From: Apus apus
Taxonomy: Eukaryota; Chordata; Aves; Apodiformes; Apodidae
Direction of reading: 5' to 3'
DNA: 64,000 bases
Assembly (NCBI RefSeq): GCF_020740795.1
Contig: NC_067283.1
Span: 111,649,706 to 111,713,705 of the forward strand
Part shown: in pieces, positions 12,201 through 61,204 of the stretch
Layout: every line of letters begins with the position of its first letter
How positions within the stretch are numbered: position 1 is the first letter of the stretch
Made by a program: the position numbers and the translations under genes
Notes under the pieces: generated by a model
Told to the model about the DNA's origin: nothing
Seen by the model: only the letters and a program-made list of their open reading frames with translations
Database searches by the model: none

Positions 12201-15200
12201 GCCTAGCAGTCCCAGTTTATTTGGGAGGGACTTCACTCCCATGCTCATGAAGAGCTCTGCTTTATCTATGGGCTGGAAGGGCACTTCATTGTTAAAGTAC
12301 ATATGGCTGTGACCTAACCCTCAAAGAGAAGTTAGTGGAAGCTTTCCTATTGATGTCAGTAAACAGAAGAGCAACAGGTTATTTCCCAGAAGATACAAAA
12401 AGCTGGAGTAAAACAACCTATTAAGTACCTGACGCTGTGTCGCTTTCAATATGACGATAATCTGAAGAAACCAGTTATTGTCTGTCTGCTTGGGTGAGGT
12501 TTTGGGGTCTCTCAGCTCTCTTTCAAGTCACTAGCAACTGTATGGTCATTGCTTCTTCGCCTGAATTCCAGCTAATGTTCAAAGTCAGGCGCTGGATGCT
12601 GAGGTACACTCTTTCCCCAAGGACCAAAATCCTGTGCCATGAGTTACAAGTGTATTGCACAAAGGGGTCCAGTGTGTGTTATGACTGATGCTGTTGGGAA
12701 ATGCAGCTTGTTGTTCAGAAACGTCTTTCTTCCCCGTACAGTATCTACAGTTTTCTGACAGAATTTTTGTGACAATTCAACCTGGTGTGTAATTCTGGTG
12801 CACTGACTTCTTTGAGTTAGAGATATGTTCATGGAGTGTTTTTGTTTGTTAGAGGTTATACTTTTAACATGTGCTGTTAGGATTTTAGGAAGGCTTCTTC
12901 AGCTCTACTAAGTAAATAAATAAAGGCAAGTGCATCTAACGACAGTATCCTTATCTCTGACATAACAGCAAAAATACTTGCCAGTGCATGGCAGTGTAAA
13001 CGTGCTATATTTTGTTTGCTTTTTCCAGGAACAATTGTAATGAAGATAAATGCAACAGATGCAGATGAACCAAATAACCTCAATTCCAAAATTGCTTTCA
13101 GGATTGTTTCCCAAAGTCCTAGTGCTGCATTCAGTATGGATAAAAATACTGGCGAGGTTCGAGTAGCAAAAATAAATCTTGACAGAGAGGTAAAAAAAAA
13201 AAATCCCATTTTTTTTATCTGTCAATAGCAATCTTCTGGTGCCTTTTGTGTCACTTTCAGCTCCACCTGCCAGGTTGGAGAGCTGGGCCTTTTACCTTCC
13301 TTCACCTCCTTTAGGATTAAAGCCTTGTCTAGCCAATGCATGTTTTTTAAGAATTGGGATGGGGGTGACAGGATCAAGGTTGTATTCCCCCTTTTAACTC
13401 TCTTGCACAAGTACCAGCCTGATGGCTGTCACTTTCTGTCCCTCCCATGCGGCCAGGACAGCAAGGGGTCATTTCTCTGTGTTGGAGATCATATGGCAAA
13501 GACAACCCAGATCACTGTGAGAAAACTTCTCACTGCATCTAGATTTTTGTAGCCTGCGATGCAAATCATGATGGAAACAGTTAGGATGGGTGCTGATGTG
13601 AAACAGCATTGAAAGCCATGTATTACTAGCAACTTTACCTGTGCTTGTATGAATTTTCAGTGGCCAGCAGATGGTGATCTGGATGTTAGCTCTGGGGCTG
13701 AGAGCAGTATCTCTAGCCCAATCCTGATATGCAGGTTACTACTGCTCCTGTCTCTGTGTATAGCTTTTAATATTTTTTTATTTGCCATGTAAGCACAGTC
13801 TAACTGTGGGGGAGATGCAGAGTCCCAAATCCTTTTCAAGCCTCAGCTTTACTCCAGCAGAGCCTGTGAAGGTAGTTGTGTGTGAGATTTACTAGTAGCT
13901 AGGGAGAAAATGAGTTATAATTGGCCACAAGAGGGACTGCCAAAATGTAATAAAGGGAGTACAGCAAAGGAAAAAAAAAATTATCCTGGTTTAAACATTT
14001 GTTTCTTATCATGGCAGACAGAAAGCAGCTATTCTTTGGTGGTGGAAGCGAAAGACCGTGGTGGTGAAATAGGTGGGAATGCTGCAACATGTTCTTTAGA
14101 AATCAAGATTTTGGATGTCAATGACAACCTGCCTGTGGTTGAAAGTCATGCAGTAAGTACATTTATCACAATAATTGGCATATTTTGGAATTTACACCTG
14201 CCAGTATCCCGTTGCTTAATACAAAGTTGTGCAAACTTTCTTGTGCTGGTGAAACAAGGTAAGTGTGACATCTTTTTAAGGAAGGGTATTTTTCAATTGC
14301 AGTTTGAAGGAAGCATTGAAGAAAACCGAGCAAACGTGGAAATTCTGCGAATAAAAGTGTTTGACAAAGATGAAGAATTTTCTGATAACTGGCTGGCAAA
14401 CTTCTCATTTGTTTCTGGAAATGAAGGTGGCTTTTTTCGTATAGTAACAGATACACAAACAAATGAAGGAATTTTGACTGTTGTGAAGGTTAGTATATTC
14501 TTTAGAGAGTGTGCTGTAAATATCCCTGTAAATATCCCTTTAAGTTGGCAAACAAATTACTTATATTCAGTCAGTGTGTAAACTGTAAATTTACATGGTG
14601 GACACTGCTCCTTTGTCATATTCTTTGCTGATGGCTTCAACAATTAATAATTTTGTCCAGCTTTACCATTTACAATCTGTATGATCTCAAAAATATCAAG
14701 TCAGGCAGAAGTCCCCAAACTTTCTTTGTCAGGCAACAGTGCTAAGACATATCTATAAACTTTCCCATATTTTTGCTCTCGTTTCTGATCTCCATTTAAA
14801 TTTCTTTATTTCTCATGGCCACAGATAATGTTGCAGGCAACACATACTCCATGAGCCATGGGGTACAGACTATTCTGTGAACTTCGATAAATTGAAATTA
14901 TGAAAATATTTTCCATAAAGGAAAATTTCTGTTTTATTCATTTCACTCCCCTTTAGTTCACAAGAACTGAAGATGCATATTGCCTTAAGTACCTTTTTTT
15001 TTTTCTTTTTCCTTTTTTTTTTTTCCTGCTCTGGTTTCCGTATCTGAAAACTGATAATTGTAGTAATTTATAAGCATTATTAAGTAAATAAATGGGCTTT
15101 ATAAAGAAATAAAGGAGCCAGGTAGCAGAGCACTGATTTGCTGAAAGACAGAATATGTGGGTAGGACTCTGCACCAAACTCAAATTAGTTTGAATTCAGT

Positions 15201-42300: not shown

Positions 42301-45140
42301 TTCCAGCCTGTCTGAGCATTTTGCCATGTAGAAGCCATTGGCTTTCTAAATAAAATCAAATATAAGGGAATGGAGCAGAGAATAAGGAGCTTATCTATGC
42401 AAAACATGCATAAATGTGTGAGACTACGTGGAAGAGAGAAAAAAATACCATGGTACAGTGGGAAAAATTCTTGACATAAACAAGAGTATTAGAGGGACAT
42501 GTTTGTTCTTGACCTGAACACTGTATTGCTTCCAAGCAGGGAACATGCCTTCATTAAAAATAGGCATTAATTCTAATTCTTCAGAGATGAACTTCAACTG
42601 ATTTGGAATTCAGATAAGCCTTAAGGCATTTACATATTTAAGGATTATCTGAATTTTTCCTTAACTGGTGGTCTCATACTTCTTGGCTTCCAGATTGCTG
42701 AGGTTACTGTGCATACCAGGGACTCTCTGCCATTCTCTTCTCCAGCCCCCTAATCACCCTGTGTGCTGGGTGATGACCCCTTCTTCTGGGTTTTGTGTGT
42801 CCCTCAGCCCCCAAATAGTCTTATGCTATCTCTGCATTTGCTATGTAACCCTACTGCTTCTTCCACACCAGGATACCTAAGTATCTCCTTCTGAGGAGTT
42901 TTCAGTGACTCTGTTTACTCTTTCCTTACAGCAGGGCTTTTCTTTTATTACTCTGTGTTGCATCACTTTCCTTGCAGCATGTATCCTGCTAGCAGTCTCT
43001 GGGAGCTGCCCTGTTTCCTGGTCTTCAAGGCAGCTTCTCTTCTCCTTCAGAAGGCCTAGATTTTCCCAGCACCACTTACTCCTTAGTGCTCAGCCCCTTG
43101 TCATTTCACATTCCCCTATCTTATTTTTTTTTAATCTGGAATAAGTTATTCAGTTTATAAGCTTCAGAACCCCATCGCACAGAAAATGTTTAGTAACAAT
43201 AGGCAGACAACACTCAACTAGCACATATTGGATGCTCAGCTCACATTGGATTTTAATAGAATTCTGTATAAATTCTCAACACTCCATGGCCTTCCAGATC
43301 AGATAAATGATAAAGCCTTTTTTTCTTACCTTCTCACTAAGTTCATTTGTATCGTAGAAATTACAGGAATAATCATCTGCAAAATATGTGAATGGAGATT
43401 CACAGACAACCAAAATCTTACCTCCCTTCAGAATGGTGCCCCTGCTAACAGCCAAAGGATCCCTATCCAGATTAGGTTTGGGATGGCAAGAGTTGAAAAA
43501 AACAGCAACTGAAGGACAAGAAAAAAATTCATGTTTGGGGTTAGAATTTTCTGTGCTCCTTATGCACTTTAAAAACAGCTGCCAAAAAGTTAATGTTCTA
43601 AAAGAGGAACATAAAACAGATAATATGCACAGCTGAAACATACTGTCCCTGTAGACATGATTTTTCAGAGACTCCTACCTTGCAAGAAAACCTAAGAGAA
43701 GTAATTATTTTTTAAGTAATTCTTCCATAGGAAAGCAATTTCACATGAAGGCAGGTGCCAATACCATTAGCTGCTTGGCATTATTTCCTTGCAGAACAGC
43801 TGATAGCAAATAACAGGACAGTCACCTTGCACTAGAATACAGATACACTCTTTCCATGACACACACAGCTTTACTGCTTCAAAGAAATACTTACAATGGG
43901 AGCAAAATCATGAAGTGTCGATGCACAGGTCTAAGAGCAGCATTTACCTTCCCAAGATCTGAATATATCCCACAAGAACCAGATTGCTGGGCACCTTGCA
44001 TTGACTTTGATGTGCATGCAAAGTGAGTGTAGAATGCTACCCACGTATCAGCCTCCTTTGCTCTAAGTACAAAGGGCACTTTCATCCCAGTTCAGATTAC
44101 TGTAATATAGATTTTTTTTTTTCCAAAAAACAACTTTGCCAAAAGGGAACATCTGCATAAAGCAGCCTGAAGGCATGGAAGCCATTGGGGAGCACCATCC
44201 ATGACTTCTCTCTAAGACCCTAATCATCATGCTATGAAAGAGGCAAAATTGCTTTTTGTTAGAATACTGTGAAATCAGTAAAAACTAAATGTGCCAGCTC
44301 CTCAGAACAGAAGTGTAGACTCGGGGTTGTCTAGGACATGGGCAGAAGGAAATGCTAAGCAGGACTGTTTCTTTGACTCTCAACTTGCACAGGGTATATA
44401 GTATGGGCAATTTTTATGAAATGCACCTGGAGAAACCCAGCTACACCAACATGCCTAGTTGAAATCTCCCAGCTTAGGTTGGGTCTTAGTCCACCCCTGA
44501 AAAAACTCTTGCCTAAATGTACATTTCAAAGCACAACAACAACACTTCCAGCATAATAAGAGTTTGGCAACTGGAACGTTAGCTAGATATTAATATAAGC
44601 TAACAGTCCATGCTAGTTGCCTTGGCTCCTTCTGGGGCAACTGGAGTAAGAAAGGACTCATTTAGCTTTTTTTAAAAGACCTTTATCTTCCAAAGGGGAC
44701 AGATCCCTCCAGGTGTCTTCCCAGTGACTAAGAGGAAACCTCAAAGTCCACCTGAAGATTGGGCAAGATGAATCCTTAGGAACTTCTGGTTAGAGGCAGA
44801 TGTCAGATCTTATCTAAATTAGACTTCAAAAAGCAACACAGCTCCATTTCAACAAGCAGGGGAACTGCTTGGGAATTTGTTTCCCAGCATGGACCATTAG
44901 CACTACCTGAGGTAGACATAGAACAAACTGAGTCTGCATCTGTATGTGGGAAGTGGTCTCCAGGAAGTACTGAGTACAGTGAGAAGAAACATGGAGCAGG
45001 CACAGAGAAATCATGGGGCCATTGCTGTACACAATCTGAGGGCAAGGTAAAGAAGATCTCCTAGAACTGATTGGATTTCTAGGCAAACAAAGGTCATTAG
45101 CATTATTTTGTGGAGGGCTTCTACAAGCCTAATCTCCCCA

Positions 45141-45399
45141 GGCAAGGGTCATGTTTGTGTCCGTTACTTATTCTCTTTGCCCTAGTGATACTGTAGTCCT
45201 TCCATTGACTGCAATGGCAGTGCTATCCATGGACTGACTCTAGGATTGGACTGTTTACTAAGCAAATAATCAGAATCAGCAGATTTGGAGTCATATGGGC
45301 ACCCAATAAGCAGCCTGTTTTGTTGTAGGATTGGCTATAAAATCCCAAATCCCCTCAGCCTCTAGCTGCTGGCACCAAGGCTCACTAACAGCAAACAGA
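45141..45399 (+). promoter_or_regulatory. TTR: Promoter and 5' UTR of TTR copy 1
   Basis: In order: a shared block caagggtcatgtttgt (45143-45158), an HNF1-like element gttacttattctc (45163-45175), a FOXA/HNF3 element tgtttactaagcaaat (45252-45267) followed by the mammal-like stretch aatcagaatcagcag, and a TATA box tataaaa (45336-45342), 64 bp before the ATG. As I remember it, the proximal mammalian TTR promoter carries these same liver-factor sites. Here the HNF1-like and FOXA elements are about 76 bp apart, against about 2 bp in the second gene. Confidence 0.75.
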
Positions 45400-45468
45400 A
45401 TGGCCTTTCACTCTGTGTTCTTTGTTTTCTTAGCTGGACTGGTATTTTTCTCCGAAGCTGCACCACTG
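45400..45468 (+). CDS. TTR: TTR copy 1 exon 1
   Basis: Twenty-three codons: the signal peptide [20 protein letters not shown] plus the first mature residues APL. Start context is strong, with A at -3 and G at +4. Donor gtgagt, phase 0. Confidence 0.96.
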
Positions 45469-48400
45469 GTGAGTCTCTTTTTATTCAAACTCAATCATCA
45501 CAAGAATGATAATCTAGACTTTCTAGATGATTAGCATCCTTCTCATCCATGAAATTCTATAACCATTTGGCTTTGCTGGAGGATTATTTTACCATTTTTT
45601 AAGTAGCTTCTTCAGAATTCTTAAAACTTACCTTTTTTGCCATTTACTCATATATTCTTAGCACATTCTGAGAAGGTCAAGAATCTAGAAGGTGTGACCT
45701 TTCATTTCTGTCTGTTTGTCAGTTCGTGACTCACATCCATACCTTCAATATAGAGGTAGCTTTATCTTCTTCACCAGGCAAGTGATTATCTAAAGCACTA
45801 AAAATACTTTTGAAGTATGACTAAGGCTTCCTTATAGTACAATGAAACTTAAGAAATACATATTCTTTTAGCAATACGAATGTCATAGGTATTTCTTTGC
45901 TGGTTTCCTAGGCTAATATACTCTGCCTACAATTCTAATAGTTTACTATTTTCTTATCTATGACCTCATTGAAAAGATATCCTTTATAACACTTTCCCAG
46001 GGCCATATGCAACTCTTAAGAATCTATTAAGCAACTTGTTTGTGTGTGTAATAAAACTATTGGTATAAAGCTCTAAGATACTCTGCTTTAAGAAAAATGT
46101 TTGTTAACTAACTTCCAATACCATTTGGCAAAGAACTTGCTTTTAAGTCAACATTAATTCTGCAATAACAATCCATCTTTTCTTTGAAAGGTTTTTACAG
46201 GGCTGGTGAACAGCTCCTAAACAACCTCTCCTGTTTTCCCCAAGGTCTCCCATGGCTCTGTGGATTCCAAATGCCCCCTCATGGTGAAAGTGCTGGATGC
46301 AGTCAGAGGAAGCCCTGCAGCTAACGTAGCTGTTAAAGTCTTCAAAAAGGCTGCAGATGGAAGCTGGCAGGATTTTGCTACTGGGTAAGTTATGTGGTCT
46401 TGTAGAGCCATTTTCAAGGTATCTTGGGCAAACAATTGAGAAGTAAAGGGAATATAGCTTTGATTTTAAAAAGCAGTATGTTTTCTAGCATGTGTCACAC
46501 TGTGTTAACAGCACATGAATTCTGGTCTAACAGCCATCAGATTGAAGTGGAAATTATCCGTGACTGAAGTACATGCTACTTGCAAAAATATTTTGAGATG
46601 CTCATCTTATCTTTGTAAGGGAATAGGTTTAATAATGTATTTTTCTCCTAGCTTCAGGAAAAAAAAAATTAAAGCCTATTTATCAGATTTTTTGTAGACA
46701 ATCCAGACTAACCTACTATTTTTTAATGTAATGAATATAGAGCTTTATTTGCAGCAGTCACATACAAGATCCTCTCTGTAAGCTTTGTCAGTACACATGC
46801 AAATAATAAGCACATTGGGTTGTCTTCTCCTGTGAAACAGGTGTGCTGGCTGGAAGAAATTCCTTGAACAAAAAGTTTTAGAATCCCATTGTAACATAAC
46901 ACAGAAGCATTTCAGCATTTGTTTGTGGTCATTTCTATACAACTGCGTAACTTCTGCAAGAATGACAGCTTAATATATACAAAGCATCCTCAGAACATCA
47001 CCGAGGGGCAGGCAGGCAATAATACTATTATTTTAAGTCTGTGGGAAAAGGTAACAGAGGGATACAGTTTACTAAAATTTAAATAATGAGGTATTCAGGC
47101 ATTTAAGTTTCATTGTAAAAAAACACTGAGTCAGATTTTTTAGTAAATCAAAAGGAACTTCTTGTAACACCAGGATATTCAAGCACAAAACAACAATCAC
47201 AAGCATGGGCAGGAGCCACCAGAGCATCCAACTGTCTTTTACTAGGATTTTTATAGTATTATTTAAATAAAAGCTGCAAAAAGAAACACAGAAGACTACA
47301 AGGAGAGAGATACCTTTCTCTCCATCTGAAGGTTTTGGGTTCTTTTTTTACAAACCTCAAAACAAAAAATACTTTTTCCTATTGAAAAGGAACAAGAAAG
47401 GTTAGGAGACTGAAGGGGAAACAAACACCTCCATTCCCAAATGCTGCATCTTAATCTGTAAGAAAATTACTCTGGTAACACATTTATTTACTTTAATGAA
47501 CAGAGAAACCCCATTAAAAATTACATGCTGTTTTCAAGGGAAGTGGTGGTAAGGATAGTATCTTGTCCATAGTGAGTATTTCTGTCATTATTAGGAAAAC
47601 CATTAATTTAAAATGTTTTGTCAAGTTTTCTTGAACATGTAATATAAAATATAATTTACAGAAGAATAAGATAAATGTAACATCATCATTAAATGCTCTC
47701 ACTTTTTGGGCATGACAGCATTTTCTTGTTTAGTTTGCAATGCTGCTCCCAACAAGCCCAAGGAGTTGAATCCCACAGTTCTCAGCCAAGTTCTGTTGAT
47801 ACTTGAGGTCAGTACACCCTTGAGAAAATTTAATAACTTATATTTAAATATAAATTGAGAAGATTGACCTTAGGCAGGTGAGAAGCATTTTGCTGGGGGA
47901 AGGCAATGGAGGAACACTAAACCACCATTCATATTGTAGGTAAATATTTTGACCTTCTCCCTGGCTTGCATTTTAACCAAAGATGCTTTCAATTATGCCA
48001 TTGACTTTAACTGAGGACACTTGTTTGAACTGTTTTTTCACATGTGGTAGCAATTTTTTTTGTTTGGGAAAACCAGAGTTTCTCTGTCTTTTTCTTCTGG
48101 TTAAACCAGATGAAAATCTGAACAGTCAAGGAACACAAATCTCTAACTACTCCTGTCAGGTTAATAATACTTTTAAGTTACAGCACCTAGAAGGTGCATA
48201 TGAAAAAGTTATGTTTATGTCTGTAGAAGTTGATTTTGTACCTTTTTGTTTGTTTGCAACTAGTTTGCTAACACGTTTTAGTGAATCAAGCAAAGGCACC
48301 TAGCAACTATTGAATTTTCAGTAATAGTATTTAAAAGGCAGGAAGGAAGACACCATAGGAACAGCTGATATTAAGAGGCTCATTTCAAAATTAGTCCAGC

Positions 48401-51400
48401 CAAAAATATGCAAGAAGAGATAACTGAAGCCTCTTATGACTAGCTTTGACCTTCTCACTCCTCATATTTTCTTGGAAATCTAGGTCTTATCATGCATTCA
48501 CCAAACATAATTTTCATGTGGTTTAGGTCAAAAATCATCTAAAACAAAACAAAAGAAACAAAAAAAAAACCCCAAACAAACAAAAAAATCCCGCAGCATA
48601 ACTGGAGTGGCTCTCTATAGTCTCCTTTTTTAAAAACAACAACAACAACAACAAACAAACACAGCTCCAAACTAGCAATTTGTTTTTCTGAGATGTTTTC
48701 TCAGAAGTCTGCATCAGAGGGCAGAATTTATCACAGTGCAGCACGTCCCAAGTGTTCATAAAGGTCACTGCACAGACAGTGTAGGTTTAACCTGGTCACA
48801 ATATACAACTAAGGTGCAGACAGTGAAAAAGAGGATCAGGGATTGCAGTCTAGGCTGGAGCCAGGGCTTTTTAACTGTCCATCTTACAGCAAATGTTAGC
48901 AGTCCACATCCTATTAAGGACAAGCAGCCACACTATATTTATTTCCCCAGTCAAACAGAAATATGAGTGCTGTTCAGAAGGAATCACTTGTAGCATTTTG
49001 CTACACTGGCTGAATGCAGGGCATCCTCTGTTTTTTCCTAATCCCATCCAGGCTTTGACTCACACACTGTCCTGTTGGCTGTCAATGCAGAGTAATCCTG
49101 AAGGGTTTCCTTGTAAGACCACTTGCATTGAATGGCTGCTACCTAATAACTAAAATTAAGAAAGTGCCATTAACCTACGATCATGGGCAAGACTGTCCAA
49201 GTGAACTCTAGGTTCCAGTTTCCCAACCACTGTGGATGGTTAATGTCTGAAACTCTGTCAGCATCCATCAGGAAAAGCATCATTCATGATGCATCCACAC
49301 TTTACTCAAATTAAAACTTGTTTACCTGAACAAAGATTTTGAGGCAGACACCATTCTTCCTTTTAACTGGTTTGTGTCTGGACTATCCAGCTTGTAAACA
49401 GATGTATGTGAATTGCTAACTTGTACTCTGAACACTTTTGCAGGATCTCAGTACATCTTCAAGAACATTTGCCAATGAATCCTTCCTTCTTTTATCTGTT
49501 GCCTTTTATTAAGGCAATATAGGTTAAGTCAGGAAGTACTAATTAAACCAAAGGAAAAAAGCTGCATACACTTCAGAAATTGCCTGTGAGCCACATTTCA
49601 AACAGGCCTTGGATTCTCTGCAGGCTTGGTCTGCCCTGGATACAGTTTATTTCACTTGTATTGGACCAGTAAGACACTTGTCAGTCTTCAAAGTGCTAAA
49701 CTATAAGCAAATCTGAAAATGGGATTTTCAATCCTTTTACTTAATTTAAGTAATAGTTCTGTCTTTAAGGCTTTATTCGTTCACCACCCTTAGCCAAAGA
49801 TGACAAATAAGATGAAGGAGGAGGCCACAGCTGGCAAAGAAAAATGGCAATAGCACAAATGATGATGTCTCTGATAAGAAACACGTCAGTTTTCTCCCCT
49901 TTGTCTCTTTCTCCTTGAGATTTTGTTTTCTGCCTGGACAACTACTCCTCGCCACACAGCAGGAAAGTTCCATTAGTTGTTCAACTCAAGGCTTTCTTCA
50001 ATTACATAATGTGGCTTTGAAGTGTAATAAATATTAAATAAATCTTTTCAGCAGAAAAAAAACAGCAACAACAAAACAAAACAAAACAAAACAACAACAC
50101 AAAATAGCTTAAAAAAATCAGGAATAAAATAAAAAGAAGGAAAAGAGAGAAATGGGGTTTAGGAGCTGAGTATATAAAGAACTGTCATACAAAGCTTGCT
50201 CCTTTTCAGACAAATAGGGTGCAATGCCAGCTATATTTCCTTCTTGCTTCTGAACTTAATTTACCCACAGTTTTTTGTTACAAGTTGAGTACATAATATC
50301 TCTGAGCTGGGAATTCTTATTGCACATTTTAACAGCACCCAGTGGAAGAGATCCCTGTTCTTTGACCAAGGCATTGTAATTCAAATTAATAAAATCTTGT
50401 GAGGCAAAATTGCTTTTCCAAGAGACAATCATTCAGGGTCACATAAAATCGCATCAGTGTGTAGGGGTAAAACCTAGAGCCTCAGTGCTAATAACTAGAG
50501 AACAAATAATTTTCCAGTAATTTCTCTCATTAATTATAATTTGAGAGTTGGCATCTTGCCTTTCATCATGACAATCCTTTTCCTAAGCCACTAACATTTG
50601 GTTCCAGAGGGCACTTGGTACAAGTTAAACATGATATGAAAAAAGGGGCCTTAACTATAATCCCTGCTGTAGCAACAGAAATAACAAAAAAGCCAGCCAG
50701 CTGTGATTTGTGATGTATATGGATGAGTTGGTAGCAAAGACAGGCTCTGCAATATGGAAACATACACTACAAAGAAGGAGGGAATTATTTCAAATTTTTA
50801 GAAACCATTCAGTGTAGAGTTTGGCTGTGTAGCATCTTTGCTATTTAATATTCTACATCGACTGTTTCTGTTTAGCATCTAAACAACAGTACAGAATATT
50901 AATGTATATATCTTATCCTTACAGGAAAACCACAGAGTATGGGGAGATCCACGAGCTTACAACAGAAGAACAGTTTGCAGAAGGAGTATACAGGATTGAG
51001 TTTGACACCAGCTCTTACTGGAAGGGACTCGGCCTTTCCCCTTTCCATGAATATGCTGATGTAAGTATTTGCAAATATACCTAACAACGTATATGCTTTG
51101 TACTGGCATCAGCTGGAAAGAACAAATACAGTGTTTTACTACTGAAGGAGCAGCATCATTCAATGAAATGGGTCACTGGCACTTTACATTGGGCAAATAA
51201 AGTCAGTATATAGCCAGCTAAGACAAAAGAAGTAGCCAACTTCCCTGTAAATACTGACACAGCTCAAAGTTGAGCTGTGCTCATTCACCCATTCAGACCA
51301 GTAGGGACCTTTGTTCAAAAAGGGCTACATTATTCAAATTACAGTATTTAAAAAAGAAACAAGGAAAAAAAAAAAAAAAGACTAATGAAAAAAACTGCTG

Positions 51401-53014
51401 AAGGAATACAGGAATTTGGAAACCCTAATTTTATAGGAAAAAGCTATTCTTCATTCAGAGATATGTTTCCCATATCAGTTACCTGCAAATCCCTGAATTC
51501 TGGCATGACCTGTAATTACAAGGGAAAAGAAACTGCTCTGCTGTGCCTTTTTTAAAAATAATGCTCAGTATTGAAATATGCATTAGAAAATAAAAGGCAT
51601 ACAATTATAAAGAAATAACCATAGTGGCAAAGGAATCCATACTCAAATTTCACAAGCCATGCAGCAAAATAATCATGCCTTGTGCCTCCCTACACTGATT
51701 TATTGTGCACCCTATTCTATCACATTTACTTAGCACTTCAAAAATATTTGTTTAAATTCTTCAGGCATAATTTGCCATTAAATTTAAGTTTCCCCAAATT
51801 AAGTAGTCTGGAATGGCTATAGGTTGTGTTGTAGAACATTCTAAGCCACAAGTTTCTGAAGCTCTATAGAAGACTACAAGAAATAGCTGAAGGCCCAGGT
51901 CCCTAAAAGACTGAGATGCAGCTTGGGCCATTTAGGTTAAACAAACAATCCTCAAAATTATTCCCTAACCATTTGGTTGTCTGAAAGTTTCTGGGGCCTA
52001 TGGAGGGGCTTATTTTTTTTGCATAATAGCACCTGGTTGAGACTGTTCCAGCTATGGTATTTAAGTGCTTTCCTTTGGCATAATAGCTTGTAGGTCAACA
52101 AATTAGCCTGGGAAGCAAGCAGAATTTAATGACTGGCTGAATACAGGATAACTGAAGGCTGCAGTCCTCATGTCCCAGAATCTCAGACTTTGGCAGGACC
52201 AGGATGTAGGAGGAAAGTCGATAGTCCTCTTATAGAAAGTACAGTTCAGAAAAAGTAGCTCAAATATTAGGCTAAAGAAAGCCAAATAAAGTGGGAGCGT
52301 AAGCCATGTGACAATACTTTCCTGAAAAATGGGTGTCCCAAATTCCAGGGACTGATTTGGAAAGCAGCAAATTTTAACCATCTTAGGACAAGGATCTCTC
52401 CTTGTTCTGACAAGTCTAGCCACTCAGTTCTTAATGCAAGAACTGATCCACCACCAAATGTGTTAAAAACAGGAGTGAGGCATTGAAGTACAGAAAGCAA
52501 CTTTGGGCTCCAACTGCCTACTTTGCTTGGACACCTCACACAGAGGGTGTATTTAAGTTCACTAGATAGGATTTCACCTCTGTCTTTCTTATCAGTTGTT
52601 TGAGATACCTCCCCCTCATCCTCCTAACCCACTTCACAAACTAGTTTTCCTCACTCAGGTGTAGGTATCTCCACCTAGCTTCACCGCAGCCAAGGCACTC
52701 TGTGGATTTTGGTCTACATCTCATAGTTTCTCAGTCTTCAGCATCACAAAGTAAGAGGGAACACTAACCTTGAGAAGAGGAAGATCATTCACTGGACAAA
52801 ACTGGCAAAGTCTTCTGCAGAGGAAATGGAGTGTGCTCCCTAATTCTCAATAAGGTAGTCTCAAATATACATTGTTCATCATGATCATAAGTTTTCTCTC
52901 TTCCAGGTGGTGTTCACTGCTAATGATTCCGGTCACCGCCACTATACCATTGCTGCCCTCCTCAGTCCTTTCTCTTACTCAACCACTGCTGTCGTCAGTG
53001 ATCCCCAGGAATAA
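45400..53014 (+). CDS. TTR: Transthyretin (copy 1, canonical avian form)
   Basis: Secreted homotetrameric carrier of thyroid hormones and of the retinol-binding protein/retinol complex, made in liver and choroid plexus. Joined exons 45400-45468, 46245-46384, 50925-51060 and 52907-53014 give 150 residues, the length of chicken TTR. Signal peptide 1-20 (ends FFSEA), mature start [16 protein letters not shown]. Human-numbered functional residues are kept: Cys10, Lys15, Leu17, Glu54, Thr106, Ala108, Ala109, Leu110, Ser117 and Thr119. The long hydrophobic N-terminus is the bird/reptile type. Exons 3 and 4 have the same sizes as in human (136 and 108 nt); exon 2 is 9 nt longer. The C-terminus lacks the YRGS motif of the related enzyme HIU hydrolase. 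Intron 2 (46385-50924) is 4.5 kb. A close, divergent copy follows 1.6 kb downstream on the same strand. Confidence 0.97.
46245..46384 (+). CDS. TTR: TTR copy 1 exon 2
   Basis: 140 nt from acceptor ttttccccaag. It encodes [20 protein letters not shown] and the strands up to WQDFATG, and ends in phase 2 before gtaagt. The first three codons (VSH) are those absent from the second copy. Confidence 0.95.
48541..48660. repeat. A-rich (AAC/AAAC)n simple repeat in TTR intron 2
   Basis: An A-rich, C-interrupted low-complexity stretch with a cleaner (AAC)n part at about 48636-48653. No coding or regulatory role is visible. Confidence 0.75.
50056..50099. repeat. (CAAAA)n simple repeat in TTR intron 2
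   Basis: Four to five copies of the pentamer CAAAA within an A-rich low-complexity stretch. Confidence 0.8.
50925..51060 (+). CDS. TTR: TTR copy 1 exon 3
   Basis: 136 nt: [18 protein letters not shown] and the helix/loop region to PFHEYAD. Acceptor atccttacag, donor gtaagt. Confidence 0.96.
52907..53014 (+). CDS. TTR: TTR copy 1 exon 4
   Basis: 108 nt including TAA. It encodes strands G and H ([19 protein letters not shown]), which form the hormone channel and the subunit interface, and ends SDPQE. Confidence 0.96.
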
Positions 53015-53162
53015 GCATGTACGTGTCGTTATACAAACACCCTCCTCTGCTAGAACTATAGTAGGCTTTCAGGAGGAAGGTTTTTCCTACTGCTAATGCA
53101 TAACTTTTTGCTACATTAGTGTGTGGTTTTTTTTTCATTTTGTACCCTGGCAAACTTAAGTC

Positions 53163-53168
53163 AATAAA
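53163..53168 (+). terminator. TTR: Polyadenylation signal of TTR copy 1
   Basis: AATAAA about 150 nt after the stop, giving a short 3' UTR as in other TTR genes. It lies about 1.4 kb before the ATG of the second copy. Confidence 0.8.
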
Positions 53169-54400
53169 ATGTTACTTTAAAACAGTTTTGATTCTACTGA
53201 TGAAGTTTTATTGTGTCCTAAGGTGTCATGATTTCCATTCAAGTGCAAAGGACCTCTGGAAAACATGCCTGGCACGGCACTTGATATGTTCTGTTATCTA
53301 TCTCCACTACCTTAAAATGCCTCACCAAATGCATTGGGCTCAAAATAATGAGTTGTGCTGCCTTTAAAAATATGACCAAACACATTACTGAAATCACGCC
53401 ATTCAGAAACCATCAGCACTCATCTGCCACCAACCTTGAAGTTTATCTCTACACACCAAGCTTGCTGGGATGACTGCATACCAAGTGAATTCACAAGTTT
53501 CAAAAGTCAGCAATTAACATTTCACTATTTAGTTAGTTTTTTCCATGATTTCTGGACACTACCGTAGTTACACAACACTTGTAAGCAGTGCAAAAATAGT
53601 ATAAACACAGCACCTGTCTTAAAGCATGCAGATTTCATGGGATCCTACTATTCCTGGAGCTTAAAAACCAGTAGCTTTGATTTGCAGAGGGCTATGCCCA
53701 GACCTCAAAATAGGACAGAAATATGTTCATACAGGTGTAGTTATTAAGAAAACCTGAAACAAACTACAAACCAAAAACTACTCTGCATTTTGTCATCCAT
53801 CTGGTGACAGGATAAACCTAGTAAGAGAGTGTGCATACACGTCTAACCAAAGATCAGAAAGACAAAGTTTAATTTAAAGAAGTAACATCTCCCTAAAATG
53901 AAGCTGATCTTTCTGGTCAGAGCTAAATCTTGCAGTTGCACAGGGAAAGTCCTGAATTTGTACTGAATCTAATGGACAAATGAAGTGATAGGGCTTACAA
54001 CACTGTTTACCTATGCTTCAGAAATGGGTGTGTAGGTATCTGGTCATCATACTGGAAGCCAAGAGTAACATTTTTCCCTCAGGAGAATGCATAAGATAAC
54101 TAGATAGCCCACAGATTAACCACCTATCTTTTTCTCAGAAGTGAGAAATCTCTTAACAGATAGAAATGGGTAAGTCAATTATGCCAAGCCATAACCACAG
54201 AGAAATTCTCACTGAACCTGGGATTACTGACTTGACAAGAAATTTGTTCTCAACTATATGAGATCTGTGTAACACTATTCCTCAATAAAAAGAAAAAAAT
54301 AACACAGAATAGACATTATTTCCAAGAAAACAGGTCACTGCTGTGGAGCTAGGCAGTATTAACTATTTCCACAGGCAATGATAGAAGATACTTATTTTTG
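53169..54400. other. Spacer between the two TTR genes
   Basis: About 1.2 kb of AT-rich DNA with no recognised repeat or exon. It separates the polyadenylation signal of copy 1 from the conserved promoter block of copy 2, so each gene has its own promoter and a single read-through unit is not needed. Confidence 0.6.
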
Positions 54401-54589
54401 CAGACAAGGGTCATGTTTGTATGGGTTACTAATTTTCTCATTGTTTACCAAGTAAATAGCATGAATTGGCATGTTGAAAGTCCTGTGGATTTTCTGATAA
54501 GTTACTGCAGTTCAGAGGTCTTGATATAAAAATCACAGATTCCATCAGTTTCTACTTGCTGACACTGAGACTTCCTAGTGGTAGGCAAA
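54401..54589 (+). promoter_or_regulatory. Promoter and 5' UTR of TTR copy 2
   Basis: It begins with the block caagggtcatgtttgt (54405-54420), identical to that of copy 1. An HNF1-like element gttactaattttctc (54425-54439) and a FOXA-type element tgtttaccaagtaaat (54442-54457) follow almost without spacing. A TATA box tataaaa (54525-54531) stands 65 bp before the ATG. The compact HNF1-FOXA layout resembles the mammalian TTR promoter as I remember it. The promoter was evidently duplicated with the gene and retained. Confidence 0.75.
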
Positions 54590-54658
54590 ATGGCTTTTCA
54601 TTCTGTATTTCTTGTTTTCTTAGCTGGCCTGGCATTTTTCTCCGAAGCGTCACCATCG
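54590..54658 (+). CDS. TTR copy 2 exon 1
   Basis: Twenty-three codons: [20 protein letters not shown] plus SPS. The signal peptide is nearly the same as in copy 1. Start context is strong (A at -3, G at +4). Donor gtaagt. Confidence 0.93.
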
Positions 54659-57600
54659 GTAAGTGTCTCAGGGTGGAGGTTCCTTAGTAGTCCCAGCTTT
54701 TTTTCTTTTTTTTTTTTTTTATCCTTCAATTAGTGTAAGTGAAAAATAGAGGATTACATCTTGTTGGAATTATTTTTATTATATGGTATGTATTGACAAT
54801 AGTTATCTCCTACTGCTCTTTCTCTACTCTTTCTCCTCTCGGGATTAGTGAGAGATCTTTACAGTTAGAAAAGCGGCACTTAGCATTACTCAGTGACTAT
54901 ATGAAAAATGAATTAAAACAAGAAAGGGAAAAAATAGCATATTCACTACAAAAAAAGGCTTGGGCTTGTTATAAAGTAACTAAAAGTCCTTATAACACAA
55001 CGAACAATCATGAGGCATTTTTTTTCCTGTTTTGAGATCCATTTTGAAGAAATGCCTTCTCTAGTCTTTTCCCTTACTGAGCTACTCAACGCAGCTCAGT
55101 CCTGCAGCAAGCAGGACTGGATTTCAGCAATCATTAATGTAAGCAAAGAAGAGAGCCAAAGCCAGGATCCACTTCCAGAAGGCTCATTTATTGCAGCAAA
55201 GCAAGCCAGAGATGCCGGAGCTTCAGCCTGAAATTCTCCAAGAACAGACCTGTCTCTTTTTTCACCCCTACTCATTCTTCCTCTCAAGCTCTGTTCTTTG
55301 GGAAAATTAATACCTGACCAACCTTTGTGAGGAAGCAGACTTTAATTGAACTCCCATAGTGCAAAAGCCAGGATCACACGAGGTGACAATAGGCTCAACG
55401 CCCTGCCAAGGCCTCAGAAGAAATGCTAGTGAAGAGCATCTGCCCTCTAGAAAGGGAGCCTGACCATACAGGCAGTATAGAAGCATCCTGATACATTGGT
55501 CTGATATAGGGCAGGGTTCCTGCATGACAGAATTTTCAGTATGTCCCAGACTGTAGGAGGGGATGTAAGCCAGAGTTCTTAGTTTTTACCATCTACATCG
55601 TTATTCAGTTTGCAATGATTAAATGGAGATCAATTATTGCTATTTTGAGATCATCCCCACTTAGCACCTTTCACAAAGCTCCATTTTCTCACTTCTCATC
55701 TACAGAATTAGGTAATGGAAGGTCAAGGCCCTGATTCAACTCTGCCTTTGAACAGGTACAATATCAGGGCATGACCACTGCTTGTGATGAACACGCCAGA
55801 AGTGAAACTACAGCCATCCTATCTTTGAAAGGTTTTCCTCTCCTATCCCTGCATAGCTGCCAAGGGCTGACAAATCTGATCCACTACAGTGTTAGGAGAG
55901 AGTCTGTGTCTGGTAGTTATAATGTTTACAGCAGAATTATATGAAGTCTATGGCAACAAGGTATCAGAGACTCTCAAATAAAGCAAGCCATGCTCCACAA
56001 TACAGAGAAAGACTTTGCCAGATTTTTAAACATTCCTGCTACCTTTGATAATGTATCTGTTGAGATCACAATTTTGTTACATCTTCATGCTGGAGATGAT
56101 GTGTAGCTAAGCCATGTCACAGAAAAAAAACAGAAATGTGTTCTCACACACAGGCACAGCACCTCCTCAGTGCACACAGCTACACTCCTGACAGCTCCTG
56201 ATAGCTTCCTACCTGCTTCCACCATATAAAGCCCCCAGAAAGCTTCAGGCTACATTTCTGCAGGATAGAGCGATGGAATATATTCTGATGGTATATTGAT
56301 GGTATATTCTGAAGACCTGAAGAATAATATACCTTACTGCTTTATTATGCACCATCACATACCTTTCTTACAATATAAAATTTCTCTTCCTATCTGAAGG
56401 ACTCTCCTGACTCCAAGCATCCTCTTGTTATAAAAATTCTGGATTCAGTCCGAGGAAGTCCAGCTCCAAATGTTCCAGTTAAGTTATATAAAGAAGCTTC
56501 AGACGGATCTTGGGACCTGTTAAATACAATGTAAGTCATATCAAAATAATGAGTGAAAGAAGGGAAAGGCACTGGGAAGAGGCCAAAAAGTGGAAAAAAC
56601 AGTTTCATATTCTCTAACAGGTTTTTTTTTACTCGGAGGAAAGATAACATACTACTGAATTAATTTGCTGCAGACTGTCTTTTAACTGTACTATAGTTTC
56701 AACTACCAGATGGATTTATAATGGTTTATAATTACTGTGAGCACAAGAAAGTATTTTTAACTATCCTTAATTCAATCATCGCTTCTCTTCAATTTCATTA
56801 CAAAGGATTATGTTACTTTTTAGTACCCAGCAATGAATTGCTGCATTGTTACTCCAAGATTCAGGCAGACTCTGTTTAGTTTGTTTGCAGCCAAGACACT
56901 GGCTGAGAATCCTACCCTTATTGGCTATTTTCCTTCTTTCTAAATGGATTTTAATTTCATACTAGCACCACAGCTCTAAAAAGAAAACATGGAAATGTTT
57001 TGAACACCTACCATATGGTATTTGATAGCATTCTTTGCTTCAAGTCTCAACTGAAAGGAGAAAATTTGGGGATAAAGCTTTACCACCTACTCCCCCACAG
57101 AGAAATAATTGTATCTAAAATAAGAAAAATATCTTCCAGATATTTAAATGTTGTCAAGTCTTAAAAAAAAAATATTATTGTAGAATTTCAGGAATAGATT
57201 AGTTGGTTTTTTTTAATTGCCCTCAGTTATAGTATATACTAACACTTTAAAAACTCAAAATCTATATTTAGTTAAAGTATAACCCGAAATGAAATTGAAG
57301 AAAAATTCTTAGGGGGTACAGAGAATAAACATTCTGTATTCAACAAACAACATTCCACTTCCACACTTCTCTCAAAATAGTTACAAAGTGTCACCTGAGA
57401 CCTTTCCAGGTCTGTTAATAGTCTATACTACTTTTTAAAAGTGATATAGGGCTCATGAGGGCTAAAGCTGACACAGTGCAGGAATTTCAGTAGTGAGAAC
57501 CCACACTCAGTGGCATTTCCAGAAAGTCCACAAGAAATTATATGTAAGTGGACCTTTGGTGTAATAGAGCAGTGGGCTGGCAGAAGCGAGAGTGCTCTCC

Positions 57601-60600
57601 TATGTGTCCTTGAAAAATACAGCTACAGTGAAGGCCACACTTATTTGTACAAGGTGGGGAAGAACAATCTATTCGTGTTGTCCTACTTAAATTGCCTCCT
57701 ACCCCTCAAGTGAGAAGATAGCTTCACACATACTCTGTCTCTGGAAATGTGTGACATTTTCCATTAAGAGGGTGTTCAATTTACCTATTTTCAAATCTGA
57801 GCTTAGAGGCTTATATAAAGATACTCAGATGAATAGCTAGATGTTGACTTAAGCCCTAAAAACAAATTTAACATTTGAAAAAAAGAACAAAATAACTCTA
57901 AGACCAGGTACGAGAAAAGTTATGATACTACTAAATCAGCCTACCTCTACAGCCTTGTTAATTTATACATAATTGAATGTTTACAAGACATTCTGAAATA
58001 ACTGTTCCCAGTTAAAGATACGTTTGCTTTTAGCTGAGAAGGCTTATTAGATAAATGAAGTTCTCTAACAATGACAAGTCTACAACAAGGAAAAAATAGA
58101 AACATTTGAACAGATAAAAAAATTCTGGTAACTCACTACAGGGTATCTTGTAAGATAGAAAAGGAGTTCTATGACTTCCTAAGTAATGCACTGGACAATG
58201 ATATAAAAAACATTATTTTTCTCTGCACGTAATTTGAACAAAATATGTTCAGAAAAAGATTTAGCATCCAAAACAGTGGTGTGCAATTACTAAAATCAGG
58301 CACTACCAGCATTGTTATTTGTGGATAACCTACCCAATCAAAAACCTAGTATTATAGAACTTATTTCAGAGATTTCAACCAAGAGATATGCTTGACAGAC
58401 AGCATTCAGTATTGGTTCTGGAGCCCCAGGATGGTTGGTGTTCAAAGTTCTATAGTTTCAAGCCATTATATGGCCTTGGATAGCACTGATAGCATCTTAA
58501 AATCAAACAAAACCATCTGTTTGTTGAGGGTGGAAAACCAACTGATCAATAGAGAAAACATGGAATTCCATAAGCTTACGCTGTTGGTTGACCTACAGCC
58601 ACTTCAAACAACAGATCTCAAACTTCAGATAGCCAACTGTAAAAATATCCATACTAACAGAACAACCTGACGTATGATAAAACAACCCAATGTATTTAAA
58701 TAAGAAAGAAAACTATGGGAAAACTGAGAGTTGACACTACTTACTTGCACAGTAAGTACATCATAGTTTCCATAGTGTTTACAGCAGTGGTGAAGTTTTC
58801 CTTCTGAGTGGGTTTGTTTAATTAACTTCCAAGACTCTGCCAACAGTCTATGAACAATAATGCCAGTTTTTGGCTCACCCCTACACCACACAGAGTAGCA
58901 ACATGGCAGGCAGCCATCTGCTGTGGTGATTGTGGAAGTAATAAATGCCAAGATAAGCTCTGAAGCATCCATAATACAGATGGACATAAGCCACTCCAGA
59001 TCAATAGAAGTATTAATCATATTACTTCAGCTACATAACATCCCTCAAGTTCAGTTGTTACGAACTGCATTCTTCTTGGACTTTTAACCAAAAGTGCATT
59101 CTTCTGCCATCACACAGACAAACCAATGACAATGGAGAGTTCCGTGAGCTCATAACTAAAGAAAAATTTGCAACAGGGATATACAAGATTGAGCTTGACA
59201 CAGCCACTTATTGGAAGAAAATGGGCTTGAATCCCTTCCATCACCATGCTGATGTGAGTAATTTTTTTATTTTTTTTTTTCCCCTGCACTTTAGCTGCAA
59301 ATAAAAAAAAATACTTTTTATGTCTAGGCTTCAATTCATAGTATAGAATCATCCTAGTTGGAAGGGACCATGAAGATCATTAAAAGCCCAACCATAACCT
59401 AAATCCCTCTACCATAATCTAATTTACCTGTTCAGTGCTTAAATCATGTCACTAAGTACTGTATCTATATTTCTTTTAAACACTTCCAAGAATGGTGACT
59501 CCACCACGTCCCTCTGGGCAACAGGTTCCACTGTCCAACCACTCTTTCATTAAAGACATTCTTTCCAAAATCCAGTCTAAACCTCCCGTGGCACATCTTC
59601 AGGCCATTTCCTCTCATCCTGTCATTATTCACTCGGGAGAAGAGACCAACACCCACCTTCCTACAACCTCCTTTCAGGTAGTTGTAGAGAGCAGTGAGGT
59701 CTCCCCTCAGCCTCCTCTTCTTCAAACTAAAAAATCCCAGTTCCCTCAGCCTCTCCTCTTAAAGCTTATTCTCCAGACCTTTCACCAGCTTGGTAGCACG
59801 CATGTGTTGAACTTCCTTTTCCTCATCTCCTTGGAGAATAGATGACAAGCACCCAAGTTAAATTTTGTTTCTGCCTCCCTGAAATGGATGACAGATTATA
59901 TTCTTATTCAAGACAGTAATGGAGGTTAATGCTGGATTGTCTATGCCTTCTGTAGTAACTGAAATAAAAAAGGCAAGATGAAAGATTTACAACATGCAAA
60001 TACACTAATTAAACATCAAGGTAACATCTAAAGTCTATATTCCAGACTAGAAATTAATTTAATCCAGAGTGCAGGAGTCTACTTTCTTAACAATAACCCT
60101 CAGTAGGGATCATGTTTTGTTCAGTTCACCAGTTGTTTCACATGCATGTTTTTTAATAACACTGAAAGCAGCACAAGTTATGCATCACAGAATGTTATTA
60201 GCCTCTGTCTATTTTAAAAGCTGACACACATTGTCGCACAACACAAAATAATCTACTACATAGAGGGAGAAATCAAAGGACAGGACATGAGCTGATGGGG
60301 AAGATGTTAAAAGGGCTGTTGTAAATCATTCATGTGTAAGGTTATTCTCACAGTGACCAAAGGACTAACGCAGTCCTTCTCTATCTACTAGATATGTAAG
60401 CAGGATTAAAATAAACCCATTGCTTCATATTATGGCCTGGTGATAGTTCTGGTAGCACTATGTTTACTCTGTTCCTTGAAGTTCAGGATTTCATAAAGGC
60501 ACCAAAAATATTAAAATACTTGAGAGACTGATTTATTTATTTATTTATTTTTAATAAAGACACTCAATGGGGTGTGATGTAGATCTTCAATAAGGAAATT

Positions 60601-60974
60601 ATCTTGTTGCCATTTGAGAACCAACAAGGAAACCCCAATTTGTATAATAAGTATTTATTTTATAAAATTTAAATCATGTGACATGGGTGCTTCTTAGAAG
60701 CATATTTAAAGTGGAAAAACTTTGACAGGCAGTCATGGATAACAGTGATGGAGAAAGTATTTCCAAAGTTTTGTGGAAAGTTAGAGAAAATGAGAACAAT
60801 GATTCCATCTAGGCTTGTATCTAGAAATCACTTCTCATTTGCTTTTTATTTGTTTTGTTTTTCCAGGTGGTGTTCACAGCTAATGATTCTGGTTATCGAC
60901 ATTACTTCATTGCTGTTCTCCTCAGTCCCTATTCTTACTCAACTACAGCAGTAGTTAGTGAGCCAGTGGAATAG
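54590..60974 (+). CDS. Transthyretin-like paralogue (tandem copy 2)
   Basis: Second complete transthyretin gene. Joined exons 54590-54658, 56400-56530, 59118-59253 and 60867-60974 keep the exon phases of TTR and give 147 residues: signal peptide 1-20 and a mature chain of 127, which aligns to human TTR numbering without gaps. No internal stop or broken splice site is seen. By hand, 99 of 147 aligned residues match copy 1: about 83% in exons 1 and 4, about 57% in exons 2 and 3. Kept: Lys15, Leu17, Glu54, Ala108, Leu110, Ser117, Thr119. Changed: Cys10 to His, His56 to Arg, Thr106 to Phe, Ala109 to Val, and Leu82 and Ser85 in the retinol-binding-protein contact loop. It is probably a secreted tetrameric transporter with altered ligand or partner preference; that is inference. 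It is not HIU hydrolase, since the C-terminal YRGS motif is absent. A recently inactivated gene cannot be fully excluded without expression data. Confidence 0.93.
56400..56530 (+). CDS. TTR copy 2 exon 2
   Basis: 131 nt, nine shorter than copy 1 and the same length as mammalian exon 2. It starts [20 protein letters not shown] after acceptor ctcttcctatctgaag and ends phase 2 at gtaagt. His replaces Cys10. Two prolines are new in strand B (PAPNVPV). Confidence 0.88.
59118..59253 (+). CDS. TTR copy 2 exon 3
   Basis: 136 nt, same size as copy 1. It encodes [18 protein letters not shown] to PFHHHAD, and 25 of 45 full codons keep the residue of copy 1. This is the most diverged exon. Acceptor catcacacag, donor gtgagt. 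Confidence 0.9.
59341..59797 (-). mobile_element. CR1 LINE 3' fragment in intron 3 of TTR copy 2
   Basis: An antisense CR1 with a near-complete 3' end: tagaatcatcctagttggaa at the left, then caacaggttccactgtccaa, tcaggccatttcctctcatc and ctcagcctcctcttcttcaa. It lies about 90 bp after exon 3. I see no CR1 at the matching place in copy 1, so it inserted after the duplication or was lost from copy 1. Confidence 0.92.
60530..60551. repeat. (TTTA)n short repeat
   Basis: About five copies of TTTA in intron 3 of TTR copy 2. Confidence 0.85.
60867..60974 (+). CDS. TTR copy 2 exon 4
   Basis: 108 nt including TAG. It reads [19 protein letters not shown] and ends SEPVE. Amino acids are well kept (29 of 35) while many third positions differ, so constraint rather than recent gene conversion explains the similarity. 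Confidence 0.93.
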
Positions 60975-61159: not shown

Positions 61160-61204
61160 AATAAAAGTACTCTGTATTCTGTAAGTACTGATCTTCTAAA
61201 TAAA
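61160..61204 (+). terminator. Polyadenylation signals of TTR copy 2
   Basis: Two AATAAA hexamers, at 61160-61165 and 61199-61204, lie about 186 and 225 nt after the stop. The short 3' UTR resembles that of copy 1. Confidence 0.7.

Follow-up and report, generated by a model that had tools for sequence, protein, structure and literature searches.

A tandem pair of complete transthyretin genes in a bird, the second under constraint and with changes in its predicted hormone channel

Introduction

The evolution of transthyretin (TTR) is usually told as that of one gene, whose product shortened its N-terminus stepwise and passed from a carrier of T3 to a carrier of T4. In the 64-kb stretch of bird DNA analyzed here (the window), two TTR genes follow one another. 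Is the second of them, copy 2, a real and working gene, how old is it, and would its product do what ordinary bird TTR does?

Results

Structure of the locus

The window is carried by a 157-Mb contig of a 1.10-Gb genome in 110 contigs, and the gene order is DSG2, TTR copy 1, TTR copy 2 and a gene of the B4GALT family. Both copies are complete four-exon genes lying head to tail on the + strand (Table 1), from the copy 1 start codon, which begins at 45400, to the copy 2 stop codon, which ends at 60974, with 1575 bp between the copy 1 stop and the copy 2 start. Upstream of the pair, an open frame at 13910-14578 encodes a cadherin domain whose best solved relatives are desmoglein-2 chains. Downstream, a B4GALT-type Glyco_transf_7C exon lies at C3:111719103-111719273, 5.4 kb beyond the window end, and presumably belongs to B4GALT6.

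Four exons, intron phases 0, 2, 0 and a signal peptide in exon 1 are the typical TTR layout, which is seen here in copy 1 (150 codons). All six introns of the pair are GT-AG (6/6) with phases 0, 2, 0 in each gene, and copy 2 (147 codons) has neither stop nor frameshift and has sound splice sites. Signal peptides were assigned by alignment with a TTR precursor, Pfam PF00576 was recognized in both products (E = 3.6e-24 for copy 2 and 1.3e-22 for copy 1), and four AATAAA lie within 400 bp downstream of copy 2. The sequence-only reading had described two intact four-exon TTR genes in tandem, about 1.6 kb apart, with signal peptides, matching phases, and a TATA box and polyadenylation signal each; all of this stands, and its coordinates (45400-60974) were exact.

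Table 1. Positions of exons, promoter boxes and polyadenylation signals of the two TTR genes in the window
Feature	Position	Strand	Remark
Copy 1 upstream box CAAGGGTCATGTTTGT	45143..45158	+	exact 16-mer
Copy 1 box TGTTTACTAAGCAAATA	45252..45268	+	fits pattern TGTTTACYAAGYAAATA
Copy 1 TATA box	45336..45342	+	
Copy 1 exon 1 (signal peptide)	45400..45468	+	
Copy 1 exon 2	46245..46384	+	
Copy 1 exon 3	50925..51060	+	
Copy 1 exon 4, stop TAA	52907..53014	+	
Copy 1 polyadenylation signal AATAAA	53163..53168	+	
Copy 2 upstream box CAAGGGTCATGTTTGT, same sequence as in copy 1	54405..54420	+	alignment and exact 16-mer
Copy 2 box TGTTTACCAAGTAAATA	54442..54458	+	alignment and pattern search
Copy 2 TATA box	54525..54531	+	
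Copy 2 exon 1 (signal peptide)	54590..54658	+	
Copy 2 exon 2	56400..56530	+	9 nt less than copy 1 exon 2, difference placed at 5' end
Copy 2 exon 3	59118..59253	+	
Copy 2 exon 4, stop TAG	60867..60974	+	
Copy 2, first AATAAA 3' of gene	61160..61165	+	others at 61199, 61286, 61312

Divergence of the two proteins

The proteins are identical at 99/147 residues, the 67% that had been estimated earlier, and at 81/127 in the mature part (80/127 if the gap is set at the N-terminus). Copy 1 matches PDB 1TFP, which we take to be chicken TTR, at 126 of 130 mature residues, and shares 92, 99 and 97 of 127 residues with the solved TTR chains that we assume to be those of human, rat and mouse, respectively; for copy 2 the corresponding counts are 71, 73 and 74. 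The expectation of the sequence-only reading that the two copies would be less alike than bird and mammal orthologues is thus borne out (81/127 against 92-99/127). Fifty-seven columns are invariant in the other seven TTR sequences, and copy 2 breaks 11 of them, including 10, 13, 47, 56, 89 and 106. Cys10 is lost in copy 2; Arg21, His88, Ser112, Tyr116 and Val122 are kept. Among the rows compared, Glu57 is shared by copy 2 only with the two bird TTRs.

This divergence refutes the idea that the pair is an assembly artefact or an unmerged haplotype, to which we give practically no credence: nothing was found in its favor, the proteins differ by 33%, and the introns are without homology at E<1e-3. 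The sequence-only reading had called an artefact unlikely, and the divergence of the copies rules it out.

Search for further copies and the hydrolase family

A search of the whole genome with the copy 2 protein gave 8 places, the eight exons of the TTR pair, and one with the copy 1 protein gave 9, the same eight exons and a weak match on contig C12 (E 0.07). A third TTR copy was not found in the genome by these two protein searches, which a much decayed copy could escape. A Pfam profile search of the genome found the C12 stretch only; as it detected none of the eight TTR exons, it says little about a third copy. The C12 match is a 5-hydroxyisourate hydrolase-like gene stretch (G000:C12:1148034-1148331) ending in ...ISPFSYTTYRGS, that is, with a YRGS end, and the C-terminal YRGS motif is a mark of the 5-hydroxyisourate hydrolase family.

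Could copy 2 itself be such a hydrolase, also called transthyretin-like protein, and not a TTR? The Pfam family is common to both, but the C-terminus of copy 2 is VVSEPVE, with SEPVE in place of the YRGS motif; it has a TTR signal peptide and TTR intron phases, the best 60 of the 156 solved relatives listed for it are TTRs or a TTR ancestor, and a separate gene stretch on C12 carries the hydrolase end. We regard this reading as scarcely credible. By its sequence, exon structure and locus, copy 2 belongs to the TTR family and is not a hydrolase.

Constraint on copy 2

The comparison of the copies by NG86 gave a dN of 0.235, a dS of 1.016 and a ratio of 0.23, a value that covers both branches together. 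Other methods gave ratios of 0.24 (LWL85), 0.24 (ML) and 0.14 (YN00; dN 0.203, dS 1.475), and the bootstrap limits from 500 resamples were 0.66-1.72 for dS and 0.12-0.40 for dN/dS. If dS is split evenly between the branches, the dN/dS of the copy 2 branch would be roughly 0.2 to 0.4. Differences between the copies at codon positions 1, 2 and 3 number 39, 22 and 64. By exon, dN/dS is 0.18, 0.13, 0.44 and 0.10 for exons 1 to 4, values that leave out one split codon and, for exon 2, rest on a dS saturated at 2.6; exon 3 is without third-position excess (16, 8 and 15 differences). Positive selection was considered and rejected, no exon dN/dS being above 0.44.

In simulations of neutral decay at K 0.25, 0.4, 0.5 and 0.7, an intact frame was left in 0/3000 runs at each value when stops and frameshifts were both counted at an assumed indel rate; 10%, 4%, 2% and 1% of the runs, respectively, were free of stops alone, and the mean identity retained fell from 0.60 to 0.28. 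The reading of copy 2 as a decaying pseudogene, open by luck, has to be set against this evidence. Several otherwise invariant residues are altered in it, and the absence of stops alone occurs in 1-10% of neutral runs. Nevertheless, the dN/dS of 0.23 (0.12-0.40), the excess of differences at third codon positions, the lack of any intact neutral run at all four K values once frameshifts are counted, and a promoter that has been kept next to introns that have lost their likeness make such a pseudogene highly improbable. The pair ratio lies below neutral; the sequence-only reading had named a neutral value, together with a lack of spliced transcripts, as what would speak against the gene. As far as its sequence tells, copy 2 is under constraint and cannot have decayed neutrally throughout its history; a loss in the very recent past would be compatible with it.

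Constraint is accompanied by a strong asymmetry of rate. With human, rat, mouse, sea bream and 7KJJ as outgroups, the changes resolved to copy 2 and copy 1 were 26:5, 30:4, 28:5, 23:2 and 26:7, so that copy 2 has accumulated 3.7 to 11.5 times as many protein changes as copy 1; another 13 to 22 sites, with a different residue in each of the three sequences, are uninformative in these counts.

Age of the duplication

Introns of the two copies differ in length throughout and gave no match to each other at E<1e-3. A looser search (E up to 1) returned two short matches of 23 and 29 bp, with E 0.007 and 0.084. The first (91%) joins 46173-46195 and 55814-55836, in intron 1 of each copy, and may be a true remnant of intron homology, perhaps the sole one; the second pairs 50660-50688 in copy 1 intron 2 with 59943-59971 in copy 2 intron 3. 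When copy 1 introns were diverged in simulation, matches were found in 8/8 runs at each of K 0.2, 0.3, 0.4 and 0.5, and in 6/8, 4/8, 1/8 and 0/8 runs at K 0.6, 0.7, 0.8 and 1.0. Since simulated introns at K 0.5 or less matched in every run, the intron divergence is probably about 0.6 or more, given the simulated indel rate.

The neutral avian rate is about 2e-9 per site per year, and crown birds are about 90-110 million years old. At this rate, the intron divergence would translate into some 150 million years or longer, and the limits of dS into 165-430 million years, figures that are an estimate and not a dated tree. Because the estimate exceeds the age of crown birds, the duplication should be older than living birds.

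The competing account makes copy 2 a recent duplicate, confined to its lineage, that positive selection has driven to evolve very fast. The majority of resolved amino-acid changes do fall on copy 2, and dN/dS peaks in exon 3 (0.44), but even the lower bootstrap limit of dS is 0.66, all intron lengths differ, and the introns hold only the two short matches at E 0.007 and 0.084; we judge this account very unlikely. The sequence-only reading had left copy 2 as either old or fast evolving, and with a dS of about 1.0, introns nearly without homology and the outgroup counts it looks to be both.

Two further observations belong here. Among the exons, dS is lowest in exon 1 (0.53, compared with 1.02 overall), but the 23 codons of this exon are too few to claim gene conversion. 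Stretches at 1-650 and at about 59340-59810 resemble CR1 retroposons, and we take them to be CR1 remnants; a reverse-transcriptase-like open frame lies at 198-515 on the minus strand in the former, and the latter, in copy 2 intron 3, has no match in the copy 1 region.

The promoter

The 330 bp upstream of the two start codons align with a score of 82.2, about 9.5 standard deviations (z) from a null of 300 shuffles (mean 19.0, sd 6.7, highest 48.8). Among six control 330-bp pairs, five gave z of -1.4 to 1.0. The remaining one, 44410-44739 against 53600-53929 (990 to 661 bp before the start codons), stood above chance with z 3.5, a likeness due either to a further shared element or to shared base composition.

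Two boxes stand out in the aligned promoters: CAAGGGTCATGTTTGT, which we take to be an HNF4-like site, and the pattern TGTTTACYAAGYAAATA, presumably a FOXA/HNF3-like site and represented in copy 1 by TGTTTACTAAGCAAATA. With both strands of the 64 kb searched, each occurs exactly twice, once ahead of each gene. About 70 bases between the two copy 1 boxes (45177-45251) are absent from copy 2, and because the resulting compact spacing resembles that of the mammalian TTR promoter, the copy 2 promoter suggests that an older layout was kept. In the mouse TTR promoter, according to the available text of the review PMC12786076, HNF4 and strong HNF3 sites matter most. Liver expression of copy 2 is likely.

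Hormone channel and N-terminus

Ten halogen-pocket residues were taken from the accessible parts of PMC5364509 and PMC3866121; copy 1 keeps 10/10 and copy 2 keeps 7/10. The three changes are M13V, T106F and A109V, of which the first and second affect residues that never vary among the other seven sequences; residue 109 is variable (Leu in sea bream and 7KJJ). For human TTR, the sources as available describe that filling residue 108 stabilizes the tetramer and abolishes T4 binding. T106F and A109V should narrow the channel of copy 2, with weaker binding of thyroid hormone or a shift to another small ligand as the predicted outcome.

Because its exon 2 is nine bases shorter, mature copy 2 has an N-terminus of the short eutherian length, with nine residues ahead of position 10. 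The GRAVY of this N-terminus is -1.92, compared with -0.08 in copy 1, -1.38 in human and -1.99 in sea bream; since sea bream equals copy 2 in hydrophilicity here, hydropathy alone says little. In the accessible text of PMC4324301, TTR comes to prefer T4 over T3 as its N-terminus shortens, and the shift of an exon border is the mechanism given for this change in mammals. By analogy, the short hydrophilic N-terminus of copy 2 should favor T4 over T3. The N-terminus and the filled channel may then pull the T4 affinity in opposite ways, and in view of these two opposing kinds of change we commit ourselves only to an altered ligand preference. A TTR-like tetramer is likely for copy 2 because Arg21, His88, Ser112, Tyr116 and Val122 are kept.

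These residues also enter the argument that copy 2 is a redundant TTR, giving more of the same carrier by dosage or by a tissue split, with most of its changes being drift at tolerant sites. Such redundancy accords with the promoter boxes common to both copies, with the retention of 7/10 channel residues and of the five residues just named, and with the strongly constrained exon 4 (dN/dS 0.10), but it sits poorly with the 11/57 otherwise invariant columns that copy 2 breaks, 10, 13, 47, 56, 89 and 106 among them, and with the strong rate asymmetry. We consider it unlikely, though deserving of some weight.

Placement of copy 2

Trees of eight mature proteins were run with and without a reconstructed ancestor. 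With the ancestor, bird and mammal TTR grouped together and copy 2 fell outside (support 65/79, not firm); without it, copy 2 fell beside the mammals (61/75, not firm). A constraint that places copy 2 with the bird TTRs was not rejected (AU p 0.16 with the ancestor, 0.24 without), nor was one that keeps bird and mammal TTR together with the ancestor left out (p 0.18). A firm pre-amniote origin of copy 2 is thus not claimed, as the tree places copy 2 variably and rejects no placement tested.

Discussion

The reading that we prefer, and hold to be somewhat better than an even bet, is that copy 2 is a working TTR paralogue with a remodelled ligand channel, produced by a tandem duplication that carried the promoter along. 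Under this reading, copy 1 would retain the ordinary TTR function; the copy 2 protein would be secreted by the liver, would form TTR-like tetramers, perhaps mixed with copy 1, and would have a ligand preference unlike that of ordinary bird TTR. A bolder proposal, which we offer tentatively and would not ourselves bet on, is that 'TTR2' is a distinct, overlooked vertebrate gene whose separation from TTR predates birds, and possibly even the divergence of birds and mammals, and which mammals and some birds have since lost. In this species it would serve as another carrier in plasma, with a mammal-like N-terminus and an altered channel that would give it a ligand unlike that of bird TTR.

The sequence-only reading knew of no description of such a pair, and nothing in the open-licence literature, as far as its text was available, contradicts this. 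No report of a bird TTR pair was found in that literature, nor did a search there bring up work on an ancestral TTR. The review of TTR evolution gives, in its available text, one affinity set each for emu, chicken and pigeon (PMC4324301). Automatic annotation may already name copy 2 transthyretin-like.

If the age and the ligand change of copy 2 are borne out, the pair is of interest in several respects. TTR, generally regarded as one carrier protein, may have a functional sister, and studies of bird plasma, brain and toxicology that assume a single TTR may have mixed two proteins. Moreover, where a bird has both an ordinary avian TTR and a second TTR, each under constraint, and the second combines an N-terminus of mammalian length with channel changes at otherwise fixed sites, the N-terminus idea would be open to a within-animal test, and copy 2 may supply natural channel variants relevant to tetramer stability.

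Among the known systems, 5-hydroxyisourate hydrolase (HIUase, TLP) resembles copy 2 in Pfam family PF00576 and differs in its YRGS end, and an HIUase-like gene exists separately on C12. The 'TTR ancestor' of PDB 7KJJ has residues 44, 50, 59 and 77 in common with copy 2, where the compared bird and mammal TTRs differ; overall it shares 77/127 residues with copy 2, no more than 1TFP does. Bird TTR (1TFP) is like copy 2 in its signal peptide, its four exons (as seen in copy 1), its family and most of the interface residues examined, and copy 1 is the ordinary bird TTR gene by its 126/130 identity. Copy 2, in contrast, is identical to 1TFP at 77/127 residues, has an N-terminus three residues shorter, lacks the cysteine and carries M13V, T106F and A109V. 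Eutherian TTR has nine residues ahead of position 10, as copy 2 has, and the human-type precursor aligns with copy 2 without gaps over 147 residues; the short N-terminus of copy 2 may be either inherited or gained anew.
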